Positions 6,498 to 57,560 of a stretch of 57,560 nt of DNA are shown in pieces (within the stretch, counting starts at the first letter, position 1; every line of letters starts with the position of its first letter). Source of the DNA: a virus; IMG/VR virus record IMGVR_UViG_3300032313_001576, positions 1 through 57,560 of that record, one strand, 5' to 3'. Below the pieces are notes generated by a model. The model was not told the DNA's origin and did no database searches. It saw only the letters and a list, made by a program, of their open reading frames with translations. A program made the translations under genes and the position numbers.

Positions 6498-6788
6498 CTA
6501 AGGGCTGCGTAGCGTCACCTGAAACGGATCGTTCTCGAGAATCGGCCCTAAGCCCTTAATCAAGATCACCGCCTTGAAGTCCCACTTATCCCAGTGGGAC
6601 TTCTTGTATATGGCGTCGTTTGCTTCACACCACTCTTTGAGGAGGGACCTAAAAAAAGGAACCTCCTCTTTTGTAATGTGGCGACACAGCCGCAGGTGGA
6701 ACACCCACTTGAGGGGGTCCACCTGCGGCACCAGATCCCAGGCGTAGAGGTCTCCGAGCAGACTACGCTCGAAGCTCCTCACTGCCAT
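6498..6788 (-). CDS. Unassigned small protein (minus-strand island 1)
   Basis: The 97-aa product starts at ATG 6788 (MAVRSFERSLLGDLYAWDL), overlapping the end of the upstream minus gene by 26 nt in another frame. An upstream in-frame ATG (6842) would lengthen the overlap and give a low-complexity N-terminus. Trp/Lys-rich segments (HWDKWDFKAVILIKGLG) suggest a compact soluble protein. Function unknown. With its upstream partner it forms a two-gene minus-strand island inside the late block. Confidence 0.45.
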   Translation of the reverse strand: MAVRSFERSLLGDLYAWDLVPQVDPLKWVFHLRLCRHITKEEVPFFRSLLKEWCEANDAIYKKSHWDKWDFKAVILIKGLGPILENDPFQVTLRSP

Positions 6789-7335
6789 CGGCACCCACCG
6801 CAGACTGAGCGGCGGGGGTGCTGTCGAAGATGTACTTGCCATTTCCGTCCAGCGTAACCTGCCAGACGGACCGGAGGGGATGGGTGGTCCTGAGTTCCGT
6901 GAGTGTGCCCGCGACGTATTCGCGGAGCATCTCCTGGAGGGACTCTCCCTCCTCGGGCTTCATCTCATGAAACCCGAGTTCTGCCACGAGGACGGGGACG
7001 TTGATCTGCCCGCCCTCGCCCGCCATGTCGAGCCATGCCCAGGCCCGAAGTCCATACCATTCATCGACGGTGACGGAGTGACCCGCCACTTTTCCGACGC
7101 GCTCTTTTCCGCGAAGCGTCAGCTTCAGGGGCCGGGCGGACCTGACGTTGATCTCTTCCCCGAACCGCTTCTCACGGCTCTTGAGGAAGCGCAGGATCTC
7201 GGAGATATCCTCCGAGACCATCCGGATGGTGGTGGCGCTCGTCAGCGCCTTCAGATCGAGGAGGTGGAGGACCAGCGCGAAGCTGGCCTCACCACGAATC
7301 TGCCTGATTTCGTAACCCGAGACGATAGTAGCCAT
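6763..7335 (-). CDS. Unassigned protein (minus-strand island 1)
   Basis: The 190-aa product begins MATIVSGYEIRQIRGE. It contains beta strands around WYGLRAWAWLDMAGEGG and a helical region before a disordered Ala/Gly C-terminus. No family was recognised. The promoter-like GTCATAA motif (7375-7381) lies 40 nt upstream. The start faces away from the terminase gene, and the intervening DNA therefore carries both leaders. Confidence 0.55.
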   Translation of the reverse strand: MATIVSGYEIRQIRGEASFALVLHLLDLKALTSATTIRMVSEDISEILRFLKSREKRFGEEINVRSARPLKLTLRGKERVGKVAGHSVTVDEWYGLRAWAWLDMAGEGGQINVPVLVAELGFHEMKPEEGESLQEMLREYVAGTLTELRTTHPLRSVWQVTLDGNGKYIFDSTPAAQSAVGADGSEELRA

Positions 7336-7374
7336 TATGTCGAAACCCCCTTATGCTCATCGTGAGCAAAACTC

Positions 7375-7381
7375 TTATGAC
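7375..7381 (-). promoter_or_regulatory. GTCATAA promoter-like motif
   Basis: GTCATAA on the minus strand, 40 nt before the start at 7335, with an AAAAC tract about 13 nt further upstream. It is one of the recurring copies in front of minus-strand genes. A second weaker copy (AGCATAA) is at 7351-7357. Confidence 0.45.
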
Positions 7382-7390
7382 GGAGAAATC

Positions 7391-9115
7391 ATGAGTTTTC
7401 TGAACTCCCTGTCCGGTCCCTGGGACTACACGCCGCCGACTGTGGACCAGGTCCGCCTGAGCGAGCAGGACATCCGTGACGCGCAGATCCCTGTCCGGCC
7501 GTCTCAGTTCATTGAGACGACGATGATGATGCCCAACCCGCACACGCGGCAATTGGAGAACTTCTCTTTCGCCGAGCGTAGATACTTACGGGAAATCTAC
7601 GACATCCAGGCTCCACGCGTCCTTTTGATGTGCGGGCGTCAGGTGGAAAAGAGCACGACCCTCGGGAACAAGACGCTGTCTTATGCGTGTCTCATTCCGC
7701 ACTTTCGCATTCTCTACGTCTCCCCTTCGAGCCAGCAGACGAAGGAGTTTTCCAAGACGAGGCTCAAGGAGCCGCTGGAGACTTGTCCTGATCTGAAGAC
7801 CTGGTTCCCGATGCATCTCACTGACAACGTCTTTGAGAAGAAGGCGATCAATCGCAGCGAGATCAAGCTCAGGTATGCGTTTCTGAACGCAGACCGCTGT
7901 CGCGGTCTGTCCGCCGATCTCATTTGCATGGACGAGTTTCAGGACCTCCTGCTGGACAACATCCCGGTCATCGAGGAGGCAGCGTCCCACAGTCCATTCA
8001 AGTGGTTCATTTACAGCGGAACCCCCAAGAGCTTGGACAACTCGATCCAGGTCTACTGGGACGCGTACTCCACTCAGAACGAGTGGGCGGTTCCTTGTGA
8101 CCGACACGGCCTTCCAAACAATCCCGGCTCCTGGCACTGGAACATTCTTGGGGAACGGAACATTGGCATCAAAGGATTGTCGTGCGATCGATGCGGGGAG
8201 GTCATCCGTCCGGACCACCCACTTGCCCGGTGGGTCAAGACAGGAAATCCCAACCCGAAGTTCGACATCTTCGAGGGCTTCCGCATCCCACAGTTGATGG
8301 TCCCGTGGTTGGAGTGGAGCAACATTCTCACCAAGTACAACCAGTACCCGCGCGCCAAGTTCTACAACGAGGTGCTTGGGGCCAGCTTCGACTCAGGCCA
8401 ACGACCCTTGATGCAGGGAGATGTTCAGGCTTGTTGCGATGGAGAGTTCTCTTTTAAGCCGGACAAGCTAAAAGAATTCATGACCAAGCTGAGAGGAAAG
8501 CAGGTCTACGCCGGGATTGACTGGGGACAGGACTCGAACAACTCGTACACGATCATCATGATCGGGGCCTACATCGACGGCTTCTTTCGCATCGTCTTTG
8601 CTCACCGCTTCACTGGCGCGGAGGCGGAGCCGAAAGAGCAAATCTCTAAGATCAAGAAGCTGCTTGCCGCCTTCGAAGTGTCGCGAGTGGGGGTGGACTA
8701 CGGAGGAGGCTACTGGCCGAACGACGAGCTTCTTCGTCTCTACGGATCACAGCGCGTGGTGCGGTATCAGTACTCAACCCCCAAGACGATCGTGAACTAC
8801 GACTCTGCAAAGGGCCGCTTTCTCATCCATCGCTCTGAGGTAATGAGCGCGATCTTCAACGCCATCAAGCGACGGTCAGTATTCCGGTTCCCCAAGTGGT
8901 CCGAGTTCGGTAGTCCTTACGGAGCGGACATGTTGGCCATCTTCTCGGAATACAACGAGAGAACACGCATGACTGAGTATAAGAAGTCGCCAAATACTAC
9001 CGATGATAGTTTTCATGCGCTGTTGCTGTGCTTCATGGCTTCGATGATCGACAACCCTCGCCCAGATATTCTCGTTCCAAGTGCTAAAATTGATCGAGAA
9101 CTGGACAAGGACTGA
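7391..9115 (+). CDS. terL: Terminase large subunit (TerL)
   Basis: DNA-packaging motor with ATPase and nuclease domains. ATG 7391 has GGAG 5 nt upstream and is preferred to ATG 7337, giving 574 aa, the usual TerL length. The ATPase shows a variant Walker A (CGRQVEKSTT, about residues 80-88), Walker B LICMDEF (about 177-183) and a SGTPKS coupling motif. The RNase H-like nuclease shows acidic residues in GIDWGQD (about 375), VGVDYGGG (about 433) and TDDSFHALL (about 537). A Cys/His cluster (PCDRHG ... SCDRCG, about 235-262) may bind zinc between the domains. No small terminase was identified. A hairpin follows the stop. Confidence 0.95.
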   Translation: MSFLNSLSGPWDYTPPTVDQVRLSEQDIRDAQIPVRPSQFIETTMMMPNPHTRQLENFSFAERRYLREIYDIQAPRVLLMCGRQVEKSTTLGNKTLSYACLIPHFRILYVSPSSQQTKEFSKTRLKEPLETCPDLKTWFPMHLTDNVFEKKAINRSEIKLRYAFLNADRCRGLSADLICMDEFQDLLLDNIPVIEEAASHSPFKWFIYSGTPKSLDNSIQVYWDAYSTQNEWAVPCDRHGLPNNPGSWHWNILGERNIGIKGLSCDRCGEVIRPDHPLARWVKTGNPNPKFDIFEGFRIPQLMVPWLEWSNILTKYNQYPRAKFYNEVLGASFDSGQRPLMQGDVQACCDGEFSFKPDKLKEFMTKLRGKQVYAGIDWGQDSNNSYTIIMIGAYIDGFFRIVFAHRFTGAEAEPKEQISKIKKLLAAFEVSRVGVDYGGGYWPNDELLRLYGSQRVVRYQYSTPKTIVNYDSAKGRFLIHRSEVMSAIFNAIKRRSVFRFPKWSEFGSPYGADMLAIFSEYNERTRMTEYKKSPNTTDDSFHALLLCFMASMIDNPRPDILVPSAKIDRELDKD

Positions 9116-17715: not shown

Positions 17716-18306
17716 ATGGCTGGACAGTTCGTCACCATTCTGAATCCTGGGTACTCTACCCTCTACACGCGCGACCTCGGGTACACCGTTGTCGCAAACG
17801 TTGATGGGGGCGCTTCTGCGAATCCCTTCAACCCTGATTCCACGAACCCGCTGCAAGAGGGCGAGTGGCTGACTTTCGACGGTACCGGCAAACTGAAGCG
17901 CGCAGCTGCTAACGTCGCTTACGACGCTGCTTCCCCCGCAGCCCTCTCCGTCGCGACGTCTGACGCGGGTAGTGCCAACGACCTGGCGACGACTCCCTGC
18001 TTCCTGTACTTCCAGGAGCGCGGGCGCTACGACGCGCAGCTTACCCGGAAGGCACACTGCATCACTGGTCCAGTCGGTTTCGAATTCCGGACTAAGATGA
18101 TTGTCTGTGCTTCCGGCCACGCTGGCGAGCGATGCTTCGTCCAGCTCTGCAATGACTCCAGCGGCCGTCAGGTTGCTGCCCTCGTCTCTGAGAGTGCGGT
18201 GGGTGACGGCGTAACTCCCGCTTCAGGAGATTGGTACGCTGGCGTCATCATGCAGGTTCACGGCACCAACGACGCAACCGTGCTGTTCCAGCCCGGCTAC
18301 CTCTAA
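17716..18306 (+). CDS. Putative head decoration protein
   Basis: A 196-aa beta-rich protein immediately upstream of the major capsid gene, preceded by an AGGAG site. It lacks helices and K-x-A-S segments and has many small residues and alternating hydrophobics, as in capsid decoration proteins placed before the capsid gene in many phages. Assignment rests on position and composition; a fibre-like accessory is possible. Confidence 0.5.
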   Translation: MAGQFVTILNPGYSTLYTRDLGYTVVANVDGGASANPFNPDSTNPLQEGEWLTFDGTGKLKRAAANVAYDAASPAALSVATSDAGSANDLATTPCFLYFQERGRYDAQLTRKAHCITGPVGFEFRTKMIVCASGHAGERCFVQLCNDSSGRQVAALVSESAVGDGVTPASGDWYAGVIMQVHGTNDATVLFQPGYL

Positions 18307-18334
18307 TCGACCCAACGTCCCGTAGGAGAACACC

Positions 18335-19465
18335 ATGGACTACTCCGCAGATATGGTGAACTCGGGCTTCATTGAGCGCCTCGAGACCGAGGGTCCAACG
18401 AAGACCGCAGCCGCCTCTCTCAACTACATCAAGGACCGCCTCCGCGAGTCCAGCTTCGCCGACATGATCGTTCCGAACGAGCGTGTTGTGCGTGGCGACC
18501 TTCAGCGTTCCACCGAGCATGACACGCTCGTGAAGATCGTGGACATTGAGCCGGGCTCCCGGGCGATGGCCGTGAACTTCCGCGGTCAGCCGACGGCTGA
18601 GTACGTGAATGGCAAGCGGTACGCCATCTCCTTCTTCACCATCTCGTCCCTCAAGTTCGAGATCGTTGAGCAGGAGCTGATGGCCTACGAGATGCCCATC
18701 ACGCGCATCATCGAGGAGAACAGCCTCAAGGACATGGTCGAGGTGAAGGATCGCGAGTTCCTGAACCACGTCGAGTCCTGCGTCAACGCCATGCAGGCCG
18801 AGGGCAACTCTGGCTCTGCTGCCTTCTCTGTCGCCGGTGGCCAGCTCACCGTCTCGAAGATCAAGGGCGTTCTCGCGACCCAGTCGGGCGGCTCGGCCAC
18901 GGACTTCGACGTGTACGCGATTCAGCGCGCTGACATCGTGAACATCAAGAAGCTCCTGAAGCGCCAGATCGTCGTCGGCAGTGAGACCATCCGCGCTGGC
19001 CGCCTGCGGCCCGCTCTGATGCTCATGACCGAGAGCGATGCGGACGATTTCGACCAGTGGACCCACGAGGACTACGGCGATCGTCTTCAGAGCGAGACGG
19101 CGCTCGATGGCTACACCTACAACAAGGTGTTGGGCCTTCGGATCATCCGGACCATCAAGAACGACATCCTCCGCGAGGGGAACGTCTACGTCTTCACGGC
19201 CCCGGAGTTCTTCGGCCGGAACTACACGCTGAACGACGTGAAGTTCTACATCGACAAGGTCGCGAACCGCATCTTCTGGCAGGCCTGGATGGACGTCGGC
19301 ATGGGCTTTGGCAACATCGCCGCCGTCGTCAAGCTCGAGCTCTACCCGGGCGATGCGACAGACGCCAGCGCCACGTCGGTCATCCCTGTTGAGGAGAGCG
19401 CCATCGGCGCGCTCAACAACAAGGTCGCTGAGGGCCTGACCTTCCCGAACATCAACGTCTTCTGA
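18335..19465 (+). CDS. Major capsid protein, HK97-fold type
   Basis: A 376-aa protein with a strong AGGAG site, followed directly by a rho-independent terminator. Order and length fit an HK97-fold capsid protein: an N-terminal arm (FADMIVPNERVVRGDL), E-loop-like beta region (AMAVNFRGQPTAEYVNGKRY) and P-domain helix ending in a Cys-containing HVESCVNAM. An A-domain follows with FDVYAIQRADIVNIKKLLK. TKTAAAS near residue 26 is a candidate trimming point. The conclusion comes from features and location between protease/scaffold-type and connector-type genes, not from a database match. Confidence 0.75.
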   Translation: MDYSADMVNSGFIERLETEGPTKTAAASLNYIKDRLRESSFADMIVPNERVVRGDLQRSTEHDTLVKIVDIEPGSRAMAVNFRGQPTAEYVNGKRYAISFFTISSLKFEIVEQELMAYEMPITRIIEENSLKDMVEVKDREFLNHVESCVNAMQAEGNSGSAAFSVAGGQLTVSKIKGVLATQSGGSATDFDVYAIQRADIVNIKKLLKRQIVVGSETIRAGRLRPALMLMTESDADDFDQWTHEDYGDRLQSETALDGYTYNKVLGLRIIRTIKNDILREGNVYVFTAPEFFGRNYTLNDVKFYIDKVANRIFWQAWMDVGMGFGNIAAVVKLELYPGDATDASATSVIPVEESAIGALNNKVAEGLTFPNINVF

Positions 19466-23624: not shown

Positions 23625-26600
23625 ATGGCAAGTGAAAACCGCCCCGGCGTCATCGTGGTTCAGGAGCTCCGTGAGACTCCTGCTGCGGTCGCAACTCCTA
23701 CCCTCAACCCGGTGGTTGTCGGCCCCTGCTACCAGATCGTGAACGCGATTGACAGCTCTGGTGCGGTCAACGGCGATGCCGAGTACACCACACAGCGGTA
23801 CACGCAGACCTCTCTTGCGATCACGCAGGCCGAGTTCCCCGATCCGCGCGACAACATCGATGAGATCAACATCGACGAGTCGCAGGTCGGCGCACGCCTA
23901 CTGTACGCAGGCGCACTGACCACGCTTCCGCGTGGTTCGCACGGGAGCACAGGCTCGGCCTTCCTGGCCTCTCTCAATGAGGCGCGGCGCGCAGTTGTCG
24001 TGTTCGACTCCGGGAGCACGGAGTTTGCCTTTGGGAGCACCACGCTTCTTCTAAACATCAAGGCCAACAGCCCGTCTGACGCGACGCCCACAGTCGTTCC
24101 GTTTGTGGGCACGATGTCCCCTGCGGCCGTTGCGGCAGCCCTCGCGGGCGTCCCGGGCGTCACCGTCACCGCGTACTCGGACTTGTCTGACTTCGATGCA
24201 AGCCTGAGCACGGATGCCGGCGTGGTCATCCAGAGCCGGGTGTTTGGCGCCGCGTCTTCGATCTTCGTCACCGGGAGCGCACTGCCGACTCTGACGGACG
24301 GAGAAAGCTCCGCTCTCGTGGCGGCCTCGACCTACCGGATCGAGGGATCTGGCTTCCGGGGACAAGATGACCTGGACGGAGACCTGACAACTCCGTGGAT
24401 CGAGTTCCACACGGGCCAGTACCTCGTCAACGCCGCCGTCACTTCGGTTGCCTCTCCCTTCTTCCTTCAGGCGAAGGATGGGACACTTGGCGGTGTTGCA
24501 CCTGCTCCGGTGTTCACCGGCTCCGGCGCGACCGTCCCGCTCAAGGCGGCGACTGCCACGACCCCGGGCGATGAGTTCTGGGCCGATGGCACTCAGGTCG
24601 GCGCAGCGGTTGTGACCGCTGTTGAGAGTGCGCGCTTCAAGCTCGGTACACTCGACTCGTCTCGATCCACGTTCGATGCGGACGGTAACCTGTCTTCTGC
24701 GGTCTACTCGACCATCGAGGTCAGCACGCCCTCGGCGATGGTTCCGTTCGCTCCGGTGTACGCGTACTTCATCGCGAATAATCTGGTGTGGGGGTCTGTG
24801 ACTCCCGCCCCGGAAGCGGCGGAACTGTTGGGTGATGACGGGGGCGCCCTTGCTGCCCTCCCCGCGCAGCTTCTTAGCTCGCCCTTCTCTGCCACGATCC
24901 CCGTCCTGACGGGCGGAACGCTCACCTTCCGGATTGTGGAAGACGGCGTCACCCTGGATGACGTGACCCACACGTTCGTAGCGTCTGTCGGGAGCAACCT
25001 GGCAGCCGCGGTTACCAGCCTGAACGCCAACACTGCCCTCTCTGCCCTTACCTTCTCCCTGGGCGAAGACAGCGGCGGCGACAAGATCCTGATGGTCTCG
25101 ACCGTCAAGACTGGCGCTGACCAGAGCGTAATGGTTCTTGGGACAGAGTCGACGACGGTCGTGACGACCTTCGGGTTCGCATCTGGCGACACGGCCGTTG
25201 GCGTGGATGTTGAGTACGCGGAGGTAGCGAGCGTAACCAGCACTGCGCTTGACTTTGCCGGAACGGCATCTGTGACTGTGACCGTCACGGCCGCGCTCGG
25301 AGACCTCACGCTCAGCTGGGATCTCCCGACGTTGTCCGGCTCGGGTATCGGGTCGGCCGACGAGTTTGCCGCCGCCCTTGCGGGCGAGACAGCCAGTGGC
25401 GGGACCTACCCTCTGTACTTTGAAAACGACACGGGCCTGCAACACGTTGCAAACGTGGTCGCGGTTGGATCCCAGGTCAGATTTACACTCGTCCGTGGCG
25501 GAGCAGAGAACGACATCACGGTCGCGGTGGCAAACACTGCGCGCATGGCGTTTGGTAGCTCCGCAACCTCGGGCACGGACGCAGGCGCCGATACACTCAA
25601 GAACACGCGCCTGAAGTTCACACTGGACAGCAATCCGCATGTCTACGAGGTGGACTTTACCAGCAACTCTCTCCGTGAGGCGGTAGACGCCATCAACGAG
25701 GCAGTCGGCGGCTCTACGGACATCGCCAGCGAAGATGGACTCGCCCTTCTTCTGACCAGCGCCTTCTCGGGCGCTGCCTCGAAGATTGAGGTTGTGGACG
25801 ATGCCGACGATCCGACCTCGACGGCGACGCCGGTCCTCTTCTCAACACTGACGGCTTCGGGCTCCGGAAGGCCGAACCCGAGCTTCTATGTTGATGGCGA
25901 GGGTACGGTACACATCAGCCCGCATGTCCTCCGCAACAGGAGCACGGGTGTTCCGCTGGACCTCACCTCGAGCGGTGCGCGGGTCTACATCGACTATGTC
26001 GGTCTCCGACTGGATGTGACGTCCGCAGCCACAAATCCCGCACTCCTCACCTTCACAGACGTGGAGACGATGGACGCGGCGATTGGGCCGATCTCGACAG
26101 AAAATCCTCTGGCGCTTGCCTGCTTCCTCATGCTCCAGAACGCCCCGACGCAGTCAGTATCTGCCCTTGGCGTCAGCGCAGTAAGCACGACTGCTCCGAT
26201 GGGGACGACCACGGCGCACCTGGCGGCCCTCACGTTCCTGGAGAGCAAGGACGTCTACGCCATCGCTCCGCTGACAGACGATCCGTTTGTGCAGCAGCTC
26301 TACTCGACTCACGTCGAGAGCATGAGCGCGCCGGAAGAGCGCGGCGAGCGCATCGCGATCATGTGGCAAGGTGTTCCGACTCGCGCGCAGGATACGTCGA
26401 TCCTCTCGGGCTCGGATGCTCGCGTCAACGGCGCCTCCAACAGCATCACACTCGGCTCCACGCCAATTGAGGGGCTGGCGGCACTCGGTCTGGATCCTGC
26501 CGACCTCGAGATCGACGACAACGTCTACCTCGAACTGGTCGTCTCCATGCTGGGTGAGACGAACGTCTACCGCTTCTCCGTCTCTGCGGTGAACGGAACC

Positions 26601-27395
26601 GCGCTCACTCTGCGCAGCGCCTTCTCCTCGAGCGAGAACACAGACGGGTTCTTTGACACGCCGAGCCTTGACTGGACGGATGACGAGAACCTGAGCGACA
26701 TGACCTTCGCTCTGCGTCAGCGCGGCAGCAAGCTGCTGGTCACCGGCACCTCGCTGACGGACTACGCAGCAGTCGCAGCGACCGCAGCCGCCCAGGGAGA
26801 GTCCTACAACAGCCGTCGCACCTTCCTGACCTTCAGCGGGAACGTGGACACGAGCATTGATGGCATCGTCACATCAGTGCCCGGGTACTACGCGTGCGCA
26901 GCCATCGCTGCGATGATTGGCGAGCTTCCCCCGCAGCAGCCGTTCACGCTGGTGTCGATGACGGGCTTCTCCAGGGTGTACGGCACCGACGACACCTTCA
27001 GCGAGAACCAGCTCGACACGGTTGCAGATGGCGGCCGTTACATCCTCATCAACCAGGGTGGGCGGATCGCGTCGAGACACCAGAGGTCGACAAAGAGCAC
27101 GTCCATCGAGGCGCGCGAGCTATCGATCACCAAGGCCATCGACTTCCTTGCCAAGGGACTTCGGGCCACGAACCGCGTGTACATCGGGCGCTTCGTCATC
27201 AACCCCGGCTTCATCGACCAGCTTGTCATGTCGAACGAGGGCTACCTCGCTCGCGCAGTCCAGGCCGGTGTGGTGAACTCGGCAGCACTCAACGGCGTGC
27301 TTCAGGACAGCTCCGCTCCTGATACAGTGCTGATTGAAGTGACGGTCGCTCCGGCGTACCCCTGCAACAAGATCCGCATCACCATCGTCTCGTAA
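23625..27395 (+). CDS. Tail sheath protein, unusually large
   Basis: A 1256-aa protein, roughly twice the usual sheath length. The N-terminus (RPGVIVVQELRE) and the C-terminal 250 residues (GRYILINQGGRIAS, then AIDFLAKGLRATNRV... and a final beta strand) carry the conserved sheath core that contracts the tail. Between about residues 90 and 760 lies a long beta-rich insertion. It has at least three repeats shaped like flagellin-hook IN motifs, such as AVDAINEAVGG followed by GLALLLTS. These probably decorate the tail surface. Myovirus identity rests largely on this gene. An AGGAG-like site precedes ATG 23625. Confidence 0.9.
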   Translation: MASENRPGVIVVQELRETPAAVATPTLNPVVVGPCYQIVNAIDSSGAVNGDAEYTTQRYTQTSLAITQAEFPDPRDNIDEINIDESQVGARLLYAGALTTLPRGSHGSTGSAFLASLNEARRAVVVFDSGSTEFAFGSTTLLLNIKANSPSDATPTVVPFVGTMSPAAVAAALAGVPGVTVTAYSDLSDFDASLSTDAGVVIQSRVFGAASSIFVTGSALPTLTDGESSALVAASTYRIEGSGFRGQDDLDGDLTTPWIEFHTGQYLVNAAVTSVASPFFLQAKDGTLGGVAPAPVFTGSGATVPLKAATATTPGDEFWADGTQVGAAVVTAVESARFKLGTLDSSRSTFDADGNLSSAVYSTIEVSTPSAMVPFAPVYAYFIANNLVWGSVTPAPEAAELLGDDGGALAALPAQLLSSPFSATIPVLTGGTLTFRIVEDGVTLDDVTHTFVASVGSNLAAAVTSLNANTALSALTFSLGEDSGGDKILMVSTVKTGADQSVMVLGTESTTVVTTFGFASGDTAVGVDVEYAEVASVTSTALDFAGTASVTVTVTAALGDLTLSWDLPTLSGSGIGSADEFAAALAGETASGGTYPLYFENDTGLQHVANVVAVGSQVRFTLVRGGAENDITVAVANTARMAFGSSATSGTDAGADTLKNTRLKFTLDSNPHVYEVDFTSNSLREAVDAINEAVGGSTDIASEDGLALLLTSAFSGAASKIEVVDDADDPTSTATPVLFSTLTASGSGRPNPSFYVDGEGTVHISPHVLRNRSTGVPLDLTSSGARVYIDYVGLRLDVTSAATNPALLTFTDVETMDAAIGPISTENPLALACFLMLQNAPTQSVSALGVSAVSTTAPMGTTTAHLAALTFLESKDVYAIAPLTDDPFVQQLYSTHVESMSAPEERGERIAIMWQGVPTRAQDTSILSGSDARVNGASNSITLGSTPIEGLAALGLDPADLEIDDNVYLELVVSMLGETNVYRFSVSAVNGTALTLRSAFSSSENTDGFFDTPSLDWTDDENLSDMTFALRQRGSKLLVTGTSLTDYAAVAATAAAQGESYNSRRTFLTFSGNVDTSIDGIVTSVPGYYACAAIAAMIGELPPQQPFTLVSMTGFSRVYGTDDTFSENQLDTVADGGRYILINQGGRIASRHQRSTKSTSIEARELSITKAIDFLAKGLRATNRVYIGRFVINPGFIDQLVMSNEGYLARAVQAGVVNSAALNGVLQDSSAPDTVLIEVTVAPAYPCNKIRITIVS

Positions 27396-38343: not shown

Positions 38344-40230
38344 TCAAATCGTGACTTCGAGCCCTCCTCCTTGTGAGAGAAGCTCCATCAGCATTTCATA
38401 GCGTACCTCCACATCCTTCCCGAGGAGGCCGTTGATGGTCTCCTCCGTGATGTCGGCGTCACGCTCGTTAATCGTGACCCGCTCCAACCGGCGGTTCTTC
38501 GGATTCATCGCGGTGTCCCACAACATCGCGGGAGGCATCTCTCCCAAGCCCTTGAACCTCGTGACCTGCGGATGACTGCGAGGGTGCGCGGTCAGTAGCT
38601 TGTTGAGCGCCTTCTCGTCACGAACCCAATGTGTTGCCTTGCCAATGTCGACTCGGTACAGAGGCGGCACCGCCAAGAACACCCTGCCATCCAGTATAAG
38701 ATCCGGAAGGAAGCGGAAGAAGAAGGTCATCGCCAAGACTGCGATGTGGTCTCCGTCGCTATCCGCATCCATTAGAAGAATGATCTTTCCGTACCTCAGC
38801 TTGCGAATGTCGAAGGTTGACCCGATTCCACACCCCAAGGCATCTACGATGTTCTTGAGCTCCTCGTTCTGCATGGCCTTTGCCAAGCTGAGGTTCTCGG
38901 AGTTCATGATCTTCCCGCGAAGCGCGAGGATGGCCTGCGTCTTGCGGTCTCTCGCCATCTTGGCAGATCCACCAGCGGAGTCCCCTTCGACCAAGAACAG
39001 TTCGGTACTGTCCCGATCGCTGGAGCTGCAATCTGAGAGTTTGCCCGGAAGGCGCAGCCGGTTGACCGGGCCCGACCGAGAGACTGCCTCGCTTGCCGTG
39101 CGGGCCGCTGCGCGCGCCTGTGCTGCCTTGACGATCCGGCGAACCAGCTCCGTTGACTGTCTCGGATTTGCATTCAGCCAAGAGGTCGCTGCCGCACGGA
39201 TCACGGGCTCTATCTTCTTCTCGACTTCGGGGTTGTTGAGCCGATCCTTCGTCTGCCCTTGGAACTGTGGATCCTCCACAAACACCGAGACGAGAAGCAC
39301 CATGCCCTCACGGATGTCGTTGGGCGTGATCTTCAGCTTCTTGGGAACTTCCTTGTGATCGGACATCAAATCGCGGATCGCAGCAACGACACCGCCATCC
39401 ACCGCCTTCTCGTGCGTGCCTCCGTCCCGAGTCGGGATGGCATTCGCGTAGGACTTCGAGACAGTCGCAGTGGAGCCTGTCCATGAAACCACGGCCTGAA
39501 CCCGAGGGTTGTCGGTGTCCACGACCAGGGGGAAGTCCGTGATGATGTCATCGCTTTGCGAGCGGAGGAGCTCGCCCATGAAGTCCACCAGTCCGCCGGT
39601 GAAGCAGAACTTCTCGGACTTGCCAGGGCTGCGGAGGTGGAACTCAACACCTGGCGTGAGGTACGCCCGGATCTTCATTCTCTCCTTCACAGTCTCGTAA
39701 TCGAACTCCTGTTCCCCAAAGATCTGCGGATCAGGGCGGAACGAGACTGTGGTCCCCCGATCACGGGACTTGCTGATCTCGAGATCGCCTTGGGGCACGC
39801 CCCGAGAGAACTCGCGCACAGCGTTTTGCCCGTTGCGCGAGGAGCTGACCACCATCTGCACAGACAGCGCGTTGACCACGCTGCTGCCAACGCCGTGCAA
39901 GCCACCGGAGGTCTTGTAGGCCCCATCTCCGAACTTACCGCCCGCGTGCAGGACGGTGAAGATGACATCGAGCGCGGAGGTTCCTGTCTTCGGATGGATG
40001 TCGAAGGGAATGCCGCGGCCATCATCTGTGACCTCGGCCGTGTCTCCCTCCAGCTCAACGTAGATCTTCCGGGCATGGCCCGCGATCGCCTCATCCACCG
40101 AGTTGTCGAGGATCTCCCAGAGGAGATGATGAAACCCGGCGGCATCCGTGCCACCAATGTACATGCCCGGACGTTTACGTACCGCCTCCAGTCCTTCGAG
40201 GACCGTAATACTACTTGCATCGTAGCTCAT
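38344..40230 (-). CDS. gyrB: Type IIA topoisomerase subunit B (GyrB/ParE-like)
   Basis: ATG 40230 has AGGAG 6 nt upstream; ATG 40236 is too close to it. The 628-aa product has the GHKL ATPase elements: EILDNSVDEA (39-48), DDGRGIP (69-75) and GGLHGVGSSVVNALS (109-123). A TOPRIM domain follows, with LVEGDSAGGSA (about 408-418) and DADSDGD (about 485-491). The family cleaves and passes DNA with an A subunit, which is not in this window. It lacks the extra insert of Gram-negative gyrase B. The GTCATAA motif lies 33 nt upstream. Confidence 0.93.
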   Translation of the reverse strand: MSYDASSITVLEGLEAVRKRPGMYIGGTDAAGFHHLLWEILDNSVDEAIAGHARKIYVELEGDTAEVTDDGRGIPFDIHPKTGTSALDVIFTVLHAGGKFGDGAYKTSGGLHGVGSSVVNALSVQMVVSSSRNGQNAVREFSRGVPQGDLEISKSRDRGTTVSFRPDPQIFGEQEFDYETVKERMKIRAYLTPGVEFHLRSPGKSEKFCFTGGLVDFMGELLRSQSDDIITDFPLVVDTDNPRVQAVVSWTGSTATVSKSYANAIPTRDGGTHEKAVDGGVVAAIRDLMSDHKEVPKKLKITPNDIREGMVLLVSVFVEDPQFQGQTKDRLNNPEVEKKIEPVIRAAATSWLNANPRQSTELVRRIVKAAQARAAARTASEAVSRSGPVNRLRLPGKLSDCSSSDRDSTELFLVEGDSAGGSAKMARDRKTQAILALRGKIMNSENLSLAKAMQNEELKNIVDALGCGIGSTFDIRKLRYGKIILLMDADSDGDHIAVLAMTFFFRFLPDLILDGRVFLAVPPLYRVDIGKATHWVRDEKALNKLLTAHPRSHPQVTRFKGLGEMPPAMLWDTAMNPKNRRLERVTINERDADITEETINGLLGKDVEVRYEMLMELLSQGGGLEVTI

Positions 40231-40262
40231 TCGCATCTCCTATGTGTGGGGCTACTCCTTGC

Positions 40263-44781: not shown

Positions 44782-45442
44782 GGATCACCTCATAGCGACG
44801 GAGCTTTGACATGTTCTCGTAGAAATCAATCACAACATCTCCGTTTCGCTTGAAACAGACCGACCCGTGGCCACCCGAGTCGTTGTACCAGTCGCCGACA
44901 CGGCGATCCAGCATGGTGTCCGCAATGGACACCAGAATATCCGACAGGGATGTCGGCTCCACTCTTCCCCGTGTCACCTCGAGTCGGTAGCCGCCCTCTG
45001 GAAGACGCTCGTGCGTCACCGAGAGTTCCCTCCAATCGACCCGTTGATTGAAGACCAAGTCACCCTTCATCCGCCATTCCTGGCACTCTTCCCAGGTCAT
45101 GGTCGAGCGATCGAAGTAGAATTCGGGGTAGCTCACGTTTCCGCTGTCTCCCCCGCCCGCGAACTGAACCGCGGCCTCGGCGCTCTGTGGAATGCCTGCG
45201 CTGTCCGCAAGTCTCCAGAGGACCTGCATGGCCTCGTCCACCACTTCTCGCAGCCAGTCTTCCTGTTCTTCGCACAGAACGATCTTCTCCGGCCCCTCCC
45301 ACTCGAGGAGGGGGCCTCCGAGCTTGTAGTTCTCCTTGACCCACTGGTCAACGTCGTCGACGTTGTCCGGGACGCCGAGGATCCGCGCGCCCTCGATGTC
45401 GCTCCAAGTCTCCCCGTCGGAGAGAATCACGATCTGCTTCAT
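44765..45442 (-). CDS. Unassigned acidic protein
   Basis: A 225-aa product beginning MKQIVILSDGETW, a plausible first beta strand of an alpha/beta fold. Trp/Asp/Glu-rich throughout, with a GGHGSVCFKRNGDV hairpin. It overlaps ThyX as ATGA. Function unknown. Confidence 0.5.
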   Translation of the reverse strand: MKQIVILSDGETWSDIEGARILGVPDNVDDVDQWVKENYKLGGPLLEWEGPEKIVLCEEQEDWLREVVDEAMQVLWRLADSAGIPQSAEAAVQFAGGGDSGNVSYPEFYFDRSTMTWEECQEWRMKGDLVFNQRVDWRELSVTHERLPEGGYRLEVTRGRVEPTSLSDILVSIADTMLDRRVGDWYNDSGGHGSVCFKRNGDVVIDFYENMSKLRRYEVIRDSSN

Positions 45443-46275
45443 GTCACCACCAACTTTTTCATGAATTCAACCTTCTCACCCGCAGCGAGGAGATGGTCTG
45501 TCAAAGGAACGTTCTGCTCTCTCATCATCCCGCGAATGATCTCCATCTCGGTCCGCGAGAAGGTCACCGCATGGAGATGGTACTCCTCGAATGCCTCCCA
45601 GGTCACGGGCACCCAGTCCGCCACGATCTTGGCGATCGCGTCGGCGTAGGCTCTCGCTTCGGCCTGTGCATGCGAGTCCATCCGCAATCGCAGCAGATGC
45701 AGCATGTTGTGGAGGTTCATCGTCGTCTGCCACTCCGTATAGGTCGAGAGCGGCAGGTTGATGCGGGCAAGTTCCTTTGCCATGCCCGCATCCAAATACT
45801 GACCGTAGGACTTGAAGAGTTCTTCGGCTTCATCTCTCATCTGTCTCGTGAGCGCCTCGCTCTCCGAGACCTCCATGTCGCCCCGGCCCTGGTGATTGAC
45901 CGTGCTCTGTAGGAATACCTGCTCCGGGACGAAGAATTCGTCGGGGAGCTTGGTGTACCTCCCCGAGATCTCATTGATGGCCTGCGTGCGATGTCTCACG
46001 AACTGCCTGGCCACGAAGATCGGCATCTTCATGTTGAGCGTGATGACGCACTGCTCGAATGGCGATGTGTGTCGATGCCGCATCAGGTAGCGAATCAGAC
46101 GCCGCATCTGACCTGGGGTGCGAGTCTCCTCAGTCTCTGACGTGGTGTAGCTCAGCCGTGCCGAGCTCTCCACGCGGCGATCATCGCCCATCACGTCCAC
46201 CAGGAATACGTGCCCGTGATCAAGCACCTTGATCGGGCTCTCGAACCCGTATTTTCGGAGAAGAACCTCTCTCAC
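45439..46275 (-). CDS. thyX: Flavin-dependent thymidylate synthase ThyX
   Basis: GTG 46275 overlaps the upstream stop as GTGA, with GGGAG 9 nt upstream. The 278-aa product contains the ThyX signature RHRTQAINEISGRY (about 91-104). It makes dTMP from dUMP using FAD and methylene-tetrahydrofolate, supplying DNA precursors with the dCMP deaminase two genes upstream. The spacing and length match the family. Confidence 0.93.
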   Translation of the reverse strand: MREVLLRKYGFESPIKVLDHGHVFLVDVMGDDRRVESSARLSYTTSETEETRTPGQMRRLIRYLMRHRHTSPFEQCVITLNMKMPIFVARQFVRHRTQAINEISGRYTKLPDEFFVPEQVFLQSTVNHQGRGDMEVSESEALTRQMRDEAEELFKSYGQYLDAGMAKELARINLPLSTYTEWQTTMNLHNMLHLLRLRMDSHAQAEARAYADAIAKIVADWVPVTWEAFEEYHLHAVTFSRTEMEIIRGMMREQNVPLTDHLLAAGEKVEFMKKLVVT

Positions 46276-46511
46276 AGGATCTGTCTCCCTTCCTCTGCCC
46301 ACTTGACTGCCTCGTCGAGGTACCAGCGAGCTTTCTTCAGATCCTCGACCGGATCTGTGCTCTTCTTGCCGGCGCGGGCAATGTACTTCACCACGTTGCC
46401 CAGCAGGAAGCCAAGGCGCCAAGCCTTGATGACCTTGATCGCCTCGTAGGGGTCGTCCTCGCCCCCGTAGTGGTCAGGATGGTTGATCGGCTCTCGGATC
46501 TTTCGGTCCAT
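46272..46511 (-). CDS. DUF3310 family protein
   Basis: A 79-aa product with the DUF3310 pattern: INHPDHYGG near the N-terminus, then a helical region ending KARWYLDEAVKWAEE. Members are common in phage nucleotide-metabolism regions and are sometimes labelled nucleotide kinase; function is unproven. Coupled with ThyX and deaminase genes. Confidence 0.85.
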   Translation of the reverse strand: MDRKIREPINHPDHYGGEDDPYEAIKVIKAWRLGFLLGNVVKYIARAGKKSTDPVEDLKKARWYLDEAVKWAEEGRQIL

Positions 46512-51798: not shown

Positions 51799-52230
51799 TC
51801 AATCCTTATTTTCGTTGGGTGCAGGGAGGGCATTGAGCGTAGCGACGAGGGCTTCGGCCTCATCGGCGTAGCCCCAGCCTCGGAATGACCCGGCACGCCC
51901 ATCGGGACTGCGCGAGGCAGTGATCCATCCCAGCACTTCCCATGCGCGACGGCCATCACTCTTCCGGGTCGTATCGCTCAATCGGACGTACAGCCCAGGA
52001 TCGCCAATCACCTTGCGAACCAGGGCAAGCAGGCAGCCCATCGTGGCGGGATCATCGAAGTCGGGCACGGCCCCGCGATAAGGTGTCCAGCCCCGCATTT
52101 GATCGGGCACGCGCCCGGTGATGGGCTCGAGCGGGTCGGGACGCTTGACAATGTAGCGCATCCCCGGCATCCACTTCCAACGGGGGGAGTTGCTGGCGTT
52201 GAGGCCGGTGAGGTAAGTTTCGTCTTTCAT
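51799..52230 (-). CDS. Unassigned small protein
   Basis: ATG 52230 has AGGAG upstream. The 143-aa product starts MKDETYLTGLNASNSPRW and is alpha/beta. First gene of the small-gene chain; the GACATAA motif lies 43 nt upstream. Function unknown. Confidence 0.5.
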   Translation of the reverse strand: MKDETYLTGLNASNSPRWKWMPGMRYIVKRPDPLEPITGRVPDQMRGWTPYRGAVPDFDDPATMGCLLALVRKVIGDPGLYVRLSDTTRKSDGRRAWEVLGWITASRSPDGRAGSFRGWGYADEAEALVATLNALPAPNENKD

Positions 52231-52272: not shown

Positions 52273-52279
52273 TTATGTC
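52273..52279 (-). promoter_or_regulatory. GACATAA promoter-like motif
   Basis: GACATAA on the minus strand, 43 nt before the start at 52230, preceded by GTAAAAT with a 12-nt gap. Confidence 0.5.
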
Positions 52280-54948: not shown

Positions 54949-55489
54949 GGCTAAGTGGCCGTCCCCTATTTATATCATCTTTTTGCACACCTTCCCTCGT
55001 CGTTCGTGAACTGAGAAATGGCCTGTTTCTTCGACTGATACAAATCGATATTCACGCTGAGGCCGTATACGCATGGCTGAGCAGCATTAACAGCCATTTT
55101 GGGGGCGTAATGCTCCTTCTCATCCCCTTCTCATCCACTGTGTACCACCTCCTTGATCTAACTTTTTTACTTTGCTTTATCATTGTTGGGGCTAAGAAAA
55201 GGCCGCTTAGCCGACAAGAGAGGCCACTTAGCGCGCAGGTGTCCCTTCGCCCTCTATTGCCGATACCCATTCCAGAGCCCCGCGCCCTTCCCGATGCCAT
55301 TCCGCACATCCCGATCTCTGTGCCCAGTGGGCTGTGCCCACCCAACATTCTCCTACCCGTAGAGAGAATGAGTGGCCCAGTCGGCGCACAGCAGGTTAGC
55401 TCAGGACTACCTGAGCTAACGCGCAGTACGACGCCTGATGCCACGGCAGTACCGCATGCGCGAATGGTAGCTAAGAAAAGGCAAGCTAC
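54949..55489. repeat. Non-coding region with GCTAAG/CTTAGC repeats and palindromes
   Basis: About 540 nt without a convincing gene. GGCTAAG or its complement recurs (54949, 55190, 55206, 55226), GCTAAGAAAAGGC occurs twice (55191, 55470), and a perfect palindrome GTTAGCTCAGG-ACTA-CCTGAGCTAAC lies at 55395-55420. A further inverted repeat GTAGCT / AGCTAC is at 55467-55489. A long open frame on the plus strand here has low-complexity content and no ribosome site. Possible origin or regulatory region. Confidence 0.45.
54970..54976 (-). promoter_or_regulatory. GATATAA promoter-like motif before methyltransferase gene
   Basis: AAAAAGATGATATAAATA on the minus strand, 155 nt before ATG 54815. Matches the motif at 41348 over 14 nt, and contains the T4-late-like string TATAAATA. 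Confidence 0.45.
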
Positions 55490-55506: not shown

Positions 55507-55532
55507 GGGGGTGGGCCCGAAGGCCCACCCCC
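55507..55532 (-). terminator. UUCG-capped 3' hairpin of small gene cassette A
   Basis: GGGGGTGGGCC / GGCCCACCCCC stem with a C(UUCG)G tetraloop on the minus strand, 8 nt past the stop of the 55541 gene. No T-run. Near-identical hairpins occur at 57244 and 57537. Confidence 0.6.
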
Positions 55533-55540
55533 ATCAAACA

Positions 55541-55759
55541 CTACTTCTTGATCATCTCGCTCATCAACTTGATGATCTCGCCGAAGTCCGCGGCCTTCTC
55601 GGCCTCGAGCTCCTTTTCGTAGCGAGCCGCCTTCTTGGCGTACTTCTCGGCCTTAGCCTCGTAGTTGCCGTCCTTGTACTTGGCCTTGGCCTCGTACTCC
55701 GCGGCCTTGGCCATGGCGGAAGCGTACTTCGAAGACTTGGACTTTTTGAACCAACCCAT
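55541..55759 (-). CDS. Small Lys/Ala/Glu helical protein (cassette A)
   Basis: ATG 55759 has GAGG upstream. The 72-aa product MGWFKKSKSSKYASAM... is a highly charged, helical, repeat-like sequence (KAAEYEAKAKYKDGNYEAKA). It lies in a cassette with a motif promoter, a leader hairpin and a UUCG 3' hairpin, matching the 57277 cassette in layout. Function unknown. Confidence 0.6.
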   Translation of the reverse strand: MGWFKKSKSSKYASAMAKAAEYEAKAKYKDGNYEAKAEKYAKKAARYEKELEAEKAADFGEIIKLMSEMIKK

Positions 55760-55771
55760 GGTAGTCACCTC

Positions 55772-55818
55772 GCAAGGGGGGAGAGTTTAGTTGTCCCCTT
55801 GCTTACTATTATTATGCC
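55772..55818 (-). promoter_or_regulatory. Conserved promoter and leader hairpin of cassette A
   Basis: Minus strand: GGCATAATAATA (55807-55818), then a hairpin GCAAGGGG / CCCCTTGC (55772-55802), then GAGG before the start. The hairpin stem differs from that of cassette B by compensatory changes. Confidence 0.6.
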
Positions 55819-55933
55819 AGCTTTCCTTGCATTTTTTAGCCCAGGCCCGGCCCGAGCCTGGCCAGGCCAGCGTATACCTTTAGGGAGAGTAAAAGGGGTT
55901 CCTGGACACTTAGGTGGGTCACAGGGTTCTATG

Positions 55934-56035
55934 CTATGGGTCTAAACTTTTAACTTAGTTGAAAAAAGAGAACATTATAAAATGTATGGTCTATCTACTA
56001 TGGGTCTAAACTTTTAACTTAGTTGAAAAAAGAGA
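55934..56035. repeat. Direct repeat of 38 bp in AT-rich non-coding DNA
   Basis: Two identical 38-bp copies, 55934-55971 and 55998-56035, period 64 bp. They lie in the 55760-56305 stretch, which holds no convincing gene beyond the cassette leader. The unit contains CTAAACTTTTAACTTAG. Possibly regulatory or origin-associated. Confidence 0.85.
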
Positions 56036-56177
56036 GCACTAAACAATCCCCCATACAATAGACCTGAACTCCGCCCGGCCCTCGAAACACGAAAAGCCGT
56101 GACCCTGTCCTGTCTGCCGCGCAGTCCGTTTTTACATTCTCGTCCCCGCCCTCGTCATGTGTCCCCATCAAATCGTG

Positions 56178-56192
56178 ATAGGATATTTTTTT
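56178..56192 (+). repeat. 15-bp direct repeat flanking the 56306 gene (left copy)
   Basis: ATAGGATATTTTTTT here and again at 57157-57171, where it includes the stop codon of the gene. The gene between could have been acquired as a unit. Confidence 0.7.
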
Positions 56193-56250
56193 TGGTAAGA
56201 GAATTAGTTAATATCAATTATTGTATAGCAATACAGCACACTGGCTCACG

Positions 56251-56295
56251 TTGACATTTGACCGTTGAACGGTGTATCAACGGGTAGCAAACCCG
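56251..56295 (+). promoter_or_regulatory. Promoter-like and operator-like sequence before the 56306 gene
   Basis: TTGACA (56251-56256), 18 nt, TATCAA. Overlapping the -10 is a perfect inverted repeat CCGTTGA / TCAACGG (56262-56283), followed by CGGGT-AGCAA-ACCCG (56281-56295). A repressor site over the promoter is plausible. Confidence 0.45.
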
Positions 56296-56305
56296 GAGAT
56301 CAGCC

Positions 56306-57160
56306 GTGGACAAGATCGCAGCGTATTCAGTAGTACTGGCCGCTCACCCTCTGTGGATGCAGAAGGAAGCAGTCACGGTTGAAGATCTCTATAGGAAAAC
56401 AACCTCAGCACCAAACGTACACATAACCTCCGATAAGTCAGACATTGCCCACGCACTTCCCACCCGGGGGCAGTATCTACATAAAGCCAGAACCTCTCCA
56501 AAGGCAAAAAGGCTTAAGAGCATGTCAGAGGCTTACCTCAACACGGTGGGCGCACTACCCGGAGGTGTCGGAGACGAGTTAAGGCGCCAGTACAATACGA
56601 CATTCGCCAAGCAACTTACATCCGACCCCCGACCCGCTGCCGAGGTTGGAAAGATTAGTATCAATCCTACTAATGTAAGCAATCTCTTTGGTAGAATGGG
56701 TACACAGATGGGTTCACAGATGCCTTCTCCCGACGGACAACGAGCCCTGACTGGACTTACGCTGTCACATGAGTTGGCCGAGAGGCGAACTGCGCCAAGA
56801 GATTTTGGTGAGTTTAGAAGTCACGCCTCTCCGGACGTATTGTTAAAGGAGAGAAATGCACTCGCCCGGATAGAAGGACCTGGGGCCGCTGAAGCGAAGG
56901 AATTGATATCGAAGGTCAGAGAGTCCTCCGGCGAAACAGATCACATCCGAAGGCTCCTGACGACCACGTACGGAGACCGTGCTGCACAGTTCCTTGAAGG
57001 TGATCAGAAGGTCTCTAAGGCCATGAGGAAAAACCTCTTAAGGAAGCTGAGGGAAAACCCAAAACTCATAGAAGAAACCGCCTCAGCTCCTGGATTTATG
57101 GGTAAAGTAAACCAGACGAAGAGGAAACTAATCCATGCGTCCCGCATGCTCCGGGTATAG
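56306..57160 (+). CDS. Tagged protein with HELAE segment
   Basis: GTG 56306 follows a GGAG. The 284-aa product starts MDKIAAYSVVLAAHPLW, then QKEAVTVEDL: the same tag as 6133, 28596 and 29382, though far from the late block in this window. A central LTLSHELAERR and RSHASPDVLLKERN pattern resembles the spacing of HE-containing peptidase-like domains, but it is not a standard HExxH. The C-terminus is basic. It lies between 15-bp direct repeats and has its own promoter-like sequence. Function unknown. Confidence 0.6.
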   Translation: MDKIAAYSVVLAAHPLWMQKEAVTVEDLYRKTTSAPNVHITSDKSDIAHALPTRGQYLHKARTSPKAKRLKSMSEAYLNTVGALPGGVGDELRRQYNTTFAKQLTSDPRPAAEVGKISINPTNVSNLFGRMGTQMGSQMPSPDGQRALTGLTLSHELAERRTAPRDFGEFRSHASPDVLLKERNALARIEGPGAAEAKELISKVRESSGETDHIRRLLTTTYGDRAAQFLEGDQKVSKAMRKNLLRKLRENPKLIEETASAPGFMGKVNQTKRKLIHASRMLRV

Positions 57161-57171
57161 GATATTTTTTT
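57157..57171 (+). repeat. 15-bp direct repeat flanking the 56306 gene (right copy)
   Basis: ATAGGATATTTTTTT, identical to 56178-56192, overlapping the stop codon of the tagged gene. Confidence 0.7.
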
Positions 57172-57243
57172 GGGGACTGAATTTACCTCAGTGAGAAAAT
57201 ACGCCCCAATGAGAATACCAGCTAAACAGTGATCCGCTGCCCA

Positions 57244-57269
57244 GGGGGCGGGCCCGAAGGCCCGCCCCC
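57244..57269 (-). terminator. UUCG-capped 3' hairpin of cassette B
   Basis: GGGGGCGGGCC / GGCCCGCCCCC with a C(UUCG)G tetraloop, 7 nt past the stop of the 57277 gene. Differs from the copy at 55507 by a paired change (T-A to C-G). Confidence 0.6.
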
Positions 57270-57276
57270 TCATCCG

Positions 57277-57450
57277 CTACTCGTCCTCCAGCGCCATCAA
57301 GCGCCTGAAGGTCTCCGCTATCCGATAATACGCCTCAAAGTCGTTCGCATGGAGGGCGGCCTCCATATCCGCCCAGGCGGCGGCGGCCAGCTCCATGTTG
57401 GCGGCCTCTACGGCGGCCGCCTCCGCGTAGGCCCTTTCCAACCTAGTCAT
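57277..57450 (-). CDS. Small Ala/Glu-rich helical protein (cassette B)
   Basis: ATG 57450 has GAGGAG upstream. The 57-aa product starts MTRLERAYAEAAAVEAAN and is a single long helix. It is not clearly similar to the cassette A protein, although leader and 3' hairpin match, so the regulatory frame is conserved while the coding part differs. Confidence 0.6.
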   Translation of the reverse strand: MTRLERAYAEAAAVEAANMELAAAAWADMEAALHANDFEAYYRIAETFRRLMALEDE

Positions 57451-57462
57451 CTCTAACTCCTC

Positions 57463-57508
57463 GCAGAGGGGGAAGATTTAGGGTCCCTCTGCTTAGTATT
57501 ATTATGAC
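57463..57508 (-). promoter_or_regulatory. Conserved promoter and leader hairpin of cassette B
   Basis: Minus strand: GTCATAATAATA (57497-57508), then hairpin GCAGAGGG / CCCTCTGC (57463-57492), then GAGGAG before the start. Aligns with cassette A over about 60 nt, with stem covariation. Confidence 0.6.
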
Positions 57509-57536
57509 CTAAAATAAACGGACTTTGAACACACAC

Positions 57537-57560
57537 GGGGGCGGGCCCGAAGGCCCGCCC
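57537..57560 (-). terminator. Third UUCG-capped hairpin, cut by window edge
   Basis: The same GC-rich stem and CGAA (plus strand) loop as at 57244, incomplete at 57560. It implies a further cassette beyond the window. Confidence 0.55.

Follow-up and report, generated by a model that had tools for sequence, protein, structure and literature searches.

Here, we present comparative sequence evidence that a lineage of uncultivated tailed phages repeats one transcription-unit layout, in which a common promoter is followed, in phase, by a hairpin that keeps its pairing while its stem sequence changes. Judged from the inferred start site, the RNA hairpin begins where the transcript begins, on small-gene cassettes as well as on other genes across the genomes. 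We consider it fairly probable that the cassettes are stable one-gene units with a promoter read by a sigma factor, a 5' hairpin that stabilises and insulates the message, a UUCG-capped terminator, and stems that drift.

The window, i.e., the whole stretch of DNA that was analysed, comprises 57,560 bases with 58% GC and is deposited as a virus record in IMG/VR. It covers part of a tailed-phage genome and encodes the following proteins.

7337-9115, plus strand: large terminase
23625-27395, plus strand: tail-sheath-like protein
38344-40236, minus strand: type II topoisomerase large subunit
45439-46422, minus strand: ThyX-like protein

The best match of the terminase in a phage collection was only about 28% identical, whereas proteins on 17 IMG/VR contigs with lengths up to 164 kb were 71-100% identical to it. 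These 17 contigs, traced via the window terminase and labelled G001-G017 (W, the window), form the relative set. The terminase of G016 (164,603 b) is 93% identical to that of the window, and G016 was also the one other viral contig matched by the exact pattern CATAATAATANTAAGCNNNGGG. Genes in the relatives were called by a simple codon-usage script, and intergenic counts are therefore approximate. In search of a host, the window terminase found no relative among GTDB genomes and the tmRNA tag pattern of G016 gave no match; a neighbouring 663-aa protein had no relatives among viral contigs. The phage tmRNA (predicted tag ANNTNAFAPVALAA) lies amid 14 tRNA genes at 140-145 kb of G016 (L028:309-4462). 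Proteins with differing downstream parts have the N-terminus M/V-DKIAAYxxLLxxHPLW in common (window 28596, 29382, and 56306, plus strand), which is present in most relatives in several copies per genome and is perhaps a shared packaging or processing signal.

Cassettes, terminators, and gene exchange

Cassettes A and B at the right end of the window are both on the minus strand and consist of a promoter, an 8-bp leader stem, GAGG, a small ORF, and a 26-nt UUCG-capped 3' hairpin. Their parts, and further occurrences of the promoter and leader hairpin in the window, are as follows.

55835..55838, minus strand: cassette A, -35-like element TAAA
55807..55818, minus strand: cassette A, -10 element GGCATAATAATA, with CATAATAATA at 55807-55816
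55772..55802, minus strand: cassette A, leader hairpin GCAAGGGG / CCCCTTGC (arms 55795-55802 and 55772-55779), CTAAA in the loop
55768..55771, minus strand: cassette A, GAGG Shine-Dalgarno sequence
55541..55759, minus strand: cassette A, ORF of 72 aa, rich in Lys, Ala, and Glu, no known family
55507..55532, minus strand: cassette A, UUCG-capped 3' hairpin, -28.8 kcal/mol
55470..55474, minus strand: TTAGC 3' of the cassette A 3' hairpin
57525..57528, minus strand: cassette B, -35-like element TCAA (consensus TAAA)
57497..57509, minus strand: cassette B, extended -10 element GGTCATAATAATA, with CATAATAATA at 57497-57506
57463..57492, minus strand: cassette B, leader hairpin GCAGAGGG / CCCTCTGC (arms 57485-57492 and 57463-57470), CTAAA in the loop
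57459..57462, minus strand: cassette B, GAGG Shine-Dalgarno sequence abutting the stem
57277..57450, minus strand: cassette B, ORF of 57 aa, no known family
57244..57269, minus strand: cassette B, UUCG-capped 3' hairpin, -29.8 kcal/mol
57221..57225, minus strand: TTAGC 3' of the cassette B 3' hairpin
57537..57560, minus strand: UUCG-capped 3' hairpin belonging to another cassette upstream, its 5' arm truncated where the contig stops
52245..52277, minus strand: promoter of this type (CATAAG, its C at 52277) with leader hairpin GTGGGA/TCCCAC, before gene 51799-52230
7354..7379, minus strand: promoter of this type (CATAAG, its C at 7379) with leader hairpin TGCTCA-CGA-TGAGCA, before gene 6763-7335; this leader was found again in several relatives

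The first-pass annotation had described a shared promoter, a covarying leader hairpin, GAGG, a UUCG-capped 3' hairpin, and differing proteins in A and B, and every one of these elements was found; the layout is as it described, with genes that run right to left, and its label of 'early' genes is unsupported. As it had also noted, two pairs differ on both sides between the leader stems, CTAAA is common to the loops, and the 3' hairpins show a paired change. The stem changes are A-U to G-C and G-C to A-U, and the change in the 3' hairpins is a single U-A/C-G pair. The leaders of A and B fold with -14.8 and -14.7 kcal/mol (z -2.5 and -1.9), respectively, and the 3' hairpins with z-scores of -4.6 and -5.4. 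The sequence GGCCCGAAGGCC occurs exactly three times with 6 near-matches, a count reached by none of 100 shuffles. The third 3' hairpin that had been seen at the window edge is indeed there, truncated by the contig end, which indicates a further cassette beyond; as it repeats 57244-57267 exactly, this hairpin is probably why the contig ended. Upstream of cassette A lies a 64-nt-spaced tandem repeat, CTATGGGTCTAAACTTTTAACTTAGTTGAAAAAAGAGA (55934-55983 and 55998-56047), and G016 159507-159673, likewise upstream of a cassette, is 74% similar to it. Rfam covariance models gave nothing above gathering score in the window, and none of the families accounts for the leaders of either the window or the G016 array.

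The array in G016 extends over 151-160 kb and consists of units in which promoter, leader, small ORF, and CTTCGG hairpin are followed by the next promoter. W 57464-57560 and G016 153049-153147 share a stretch of 99 nt that spans 3' hairpin, promoter, and leader with 86% identity, and the genes behind it are unrelated. This like joint before unlike genes suggests that genes have been swapped between cassettes, in line with the first-pass proposal of swappable small genes, although the hairpin is not limited to small cassettes. The proteins of A and B are unrelated to each other and had no relative in 13 related, fragmentary records (tblastn). Two G016 cassettes have a highly structured RNA in place of an evident ORF (153625-153900 and 157977-158490; L028:13625-13900 and 17977-18490), with z-scores of -5.9 and -6.1 for the parts that were folded and no Rfam match; the latter ends in a hairpin followed by TTTTAGC.

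Intergenic GC-rich hairpins are followed within 40 nt by TTAGC in 41 of 202 cases (approximate, as above), compared with 7 of 321 hairpins inside genes, in the window and relatives together. Hairpin plus TTAGC is thus a terminator signature of this phage group. In several G016 cassettes, TTAGC lies inside or just before the next promoter.

The cassettes resemble the morons of lambdoid and other phages, which are single genes with their own promoter and terminator that vary among relatives. Morons are, in addition, expressed from a prophage and not required for lytic growth. A promoter and a terminator are predicted around single genes in A, B, and the G016 array, and within the 13 fragmentary records the genes of A and B are absent or replaced. 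Unlike morons, the cassettes stand in tandem arrays with a common terminator-promoter-leader joint and a leader hairpin, and two G016 units hold structured RNA.

Promoter and sigma factor

Alignment of 22 sites gave the promoter consensus TAAA-N15-G(G/C)(T/G)CATAA (model form TAAA-N15-GGTCATAA). A promoter model trained on the -35 and -10 columns only, and iterated across all relatives, detected 121 sites at 13 bits or more versus 14 for the mirrored motif. The -10 element occurs in two forms, CATAATATA/CATAATAAT in the cassettes of W, G016, and G005, and CATAAG/CATAAA before other genes in most relatives; an exact search with a longer class-1 promoter pattern gave no match. Promoters of the FliA/sigma-28 class have the consensus TAAA-N15-GCCGATAA and thus share TAAA and the 15-nt spacer. 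The -10 element differs, however, and a search for TAAA-N15-GCCGATAA with up to 2 mismatches gave chance-level matches only, so that assignment to this class was rejected. The motif TCCTATCA recurs in intergenic DNA, often shortly upstream of promoters (G016 152538, 154147, 157931, and 158493; G005 23138 and 19839; window 56183, minus strand), and is a possible activator or operator site.

A candidate reader of the promoter is encoded by the phages themselves. G016 carries a gene for a sigma-70-family protein of 277 aa (113888-114718, minus strand; locus L084) with a Sigma70_r3 match (E=3e-10). Its best solved-structure match is SigA (E=7e-10), and SigA and RpoS chains match better than FliA. 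Orthologs (L085-L088) that are 58-71% identical are present in G010, G014, G005, and G008, so that the factor is encoded in each of the five relatives that exceed about 79 kb; its absence from the window and the shorter fragments carries no weight, as these are incomplete. The protein was reached via a weak region-4 match followed by a whole-protein search and is barely visible to Pfam region models, and the Pfam search for Sigma70 region 2 found nothing. A search for a single-subunit RNA polymerase gave no match, but is uninformative because its control was equally silent. The factor probably reads the TAAA-N15-GGTCATAA promoter.

Position and pairing of the leader hairpin

No leader positions entered the promoter model, so that leader structure could be tested without circularity. 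At 90 non-redundant promoters, 35-nt segments numbered from the C of CATAA were compared with dinucleotide shuffles. The segment +10..+45 had a mean z of -1.30, with p<=0.05 at 38% of the sites, versus a mean z of -0.47 and 11% of the sites after a shift of 4 nt (+14..+49). Controls were close to the latter values, with z -0.26 and 9% for random segments and z -0.27 and 12% for promoterless gene starts. The segment just upstream of the promoter was also structured (26%), consistent with terminators there. When leaders were folded only as far as the Shine-Dalgarno sequence (n=56), mean z was -1.49 and 45% were significant at p<0.05. Among leaders of sufficient length to fold, roughly half have no significant hairpin, and some others are too short for one. 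The tendency of leaders to leave few exterior bases unpaired was marginal against the control (11/200).

Variable stems and loops defeat sequence alignment of the leaders, and since MAFFT put several class-1 stems out of register, covariation was tested by swapping arms between leaders. The leaders' own arms pair with a mean of -9.59 kcal/mol compared with -7.44 kcal/mol for swapped arms, and none of 5000 permutations reached the own value; for a downstream control segment it was reached in 88 of 5000. The upstream control was discounted, as some segments extended beyond the contigs and their energies had no meaning. For G016 by itself, the result was weak (527/5000) because many arms share GAGAGG/CCUCUC. 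In one aligned ortholog set of 8 leaders, seven of them before a tiny conserved ORF, pairing amounts to 95% versus 10-59% with partners slid. One pair changed on both sides in this very uniform set, and the shuffle control was not significant (124/500). The tiny ORF after the orthologous hairpin encodes 16-27 aa, mostly ending in GDW, EW, or similar, in seven relatives (G016 65574, G002 19172, G010 31239, G004 4846, G009 18904, G015 7804, and G005 101872). Asymmetry between G-U and A-C did not separate RNA from DNA structure. The promoter-hairpin combination recurs across relatives with freely changing stems, which bears out the first-pass view of a selected RNA structure and goes against its alternative of just two copies lacking further covariation.

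What the hairpin does is a matter of inference, stability or translation being the functions that the first-pass annotation had suggested and that we also favour. Alternatively, the hairpin might serve to coordinate the transcripts, either by binding an RNA-binding protein of phage or host origin or as an antitermination RNA, with recognition through stem length and a CUAAA/UAAC-like loop. CTAAA or CTAAC is indeed found in the loops of the window cassettes and several G016 cassettes, and ATAACC/ATAGCC is frequent in class-2 leader loops. However, loop length ranges from 3 to more than 30 nt, several leaders have a CGA loop with no such motif, and a candidate binding protein was not identified. 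Sequence-specific binding is possible for the CTAAA-loop class of cassettes; as a general explanation we regard it as rather unlikely. It is less likely still that the hairpin chiefly tunes translation rather than stability, as a standby site or by masking and unmasking the Shine-Dalgarno sequence. A median of 3 nt separates the end of the hairpin from that sequence (26 significant leaders), and a few leaders have it inside the loop (G005 26048, possibly W 9636), but in A and B it lies outside the stem, 0 nt from the stem end. Two tRNA-operon promoters apparently lack a hairpin, but this sample is too small to tell stability from translation.

We find it improbable that the inverted repeat is a DNA operator for a dimeric repressor: placement at +1 to +30, just past the start site, would be typical, and other conserved DNA motifs such as TCCTATCA lie near the promoters, but a single repressor needs a conserved sequence, and the arms have none in common, varying among promoters of one genome (57 of 64 stems have distinct 5' arms) while pairing is kept. 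That A and B merely reflect a recent duplication of the promoter/terminator joint with an incidental stem, as their similar flanks and the W/G016 joint might suggest, is highly improbable and already contradicted by stem changes on both sides together and by a phased fold signal across 90 non-redundant promoters of diverged relatives.

Proposed function and known systems

We propose that, in these large tailed phages, every cassette is transcribed as a unit of its own with a single gene, in which the promoter, probably read by the phage sigma factor, would start RNA about 7 nt after the -10 element. The first nucleotides would form a stem-loop whose end lies a few nucleotides before the Shine-Dalgarno sequence; the hairpin may also lie a few nucleotides inside the RNA rather than at its 5' end. 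Most likely, it would shield the 5' end from host pyrophosphohydrolase and ribonucleases and keep leader bases off the ribosome site. Any gene placed behind such a leader could yield a stable and well-translated short mRNA, and the UUCG-capped hairpin would terminate the unit and protect its 3' end. If only pairing matters, stems would be free to drift by compensatory change. More speculatively, and with little confidence, the hairpin may mark self from non-self, so that phage mRNAs persist while untagged host mRNA is removed by a ribonuclease that is either induced by the phage or the host's own; tag, sigma promoter, and UUCG terminator would then form a slot for swapped-in small proteins and structured RNAs.

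A stabilising and insulating hairpin is the best reading because the same combination of stem-loop and Shine-Dalgarno sequence as in aprE heads many predicted transcripts here with drifting stem letters. RppH and RNase E/J prefer single-stranded 5' ends, and 5' structures thus stabilise mRNA (PMC3997798). In the aprE leader, the 5' stem-loop and the Shine-Dalgarno sequence jointly confer high stability (PMC11805744, PMC7509114), which falls from >25 to about 5 min without the stem-loop (PMC11805744). As in the leaders of Escherichia coli ompA and papA and Bacillus subtilis aprE, a stem-loop at or near the predicted 5' end (stem start 9-16 nt after the C of CATAA in 64 stems, where the fold signal is phased) is directly followed by a strong Shine-Dalgarno sequence. 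The stabilising leader of phage SP82 is comparable except that a polypurine ribosome-site element takes the role of the stem-loop before its Shine-Dalgarno sequence. These systems were described on single genes, whereas here many promoters of one phage lineage carry unrelated stems with a putative stabilising role.

Transcripts of T7 class III begin with a 5' GGGAGACC...GGUUUCCC hairpin and are thus also phage transcripts that start with a hairpin. Its 5' arm, however, lies within the promoter's conserved initial region, while here the sequence differs from promoter to promoter. The SAS/ESAS of Cluster K mycobacteriophages is a repeated element with inverted repeats before many phage genes (PMC3203893), as is the element described here. 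ESAS half-sites keep a consensus and accompany a 13-bp GGGATAGGAGCCC start element, whereas the stem sequence is free here and the element is tied to the promoter; the window lacks GGGATAGGAGCCC, with one 2-mismatch match versus 1.5 expected by chance. Searches of open-licence papers gave no description of a promoter plus 5' hairpin cassette arrangement in phages.

If our interpretation is right, transcription in an uncultivated phage lineage could be mapped in draft from sequence alone, with promoter, start, leader, and terminator called together. The variable cassettes would be a labelled collection of structured RNAs and proteins that are candidates for host takeover, and the dozens of differing stems with the same job would form a natural series on mRNA stabilisation by 5' hairpins.
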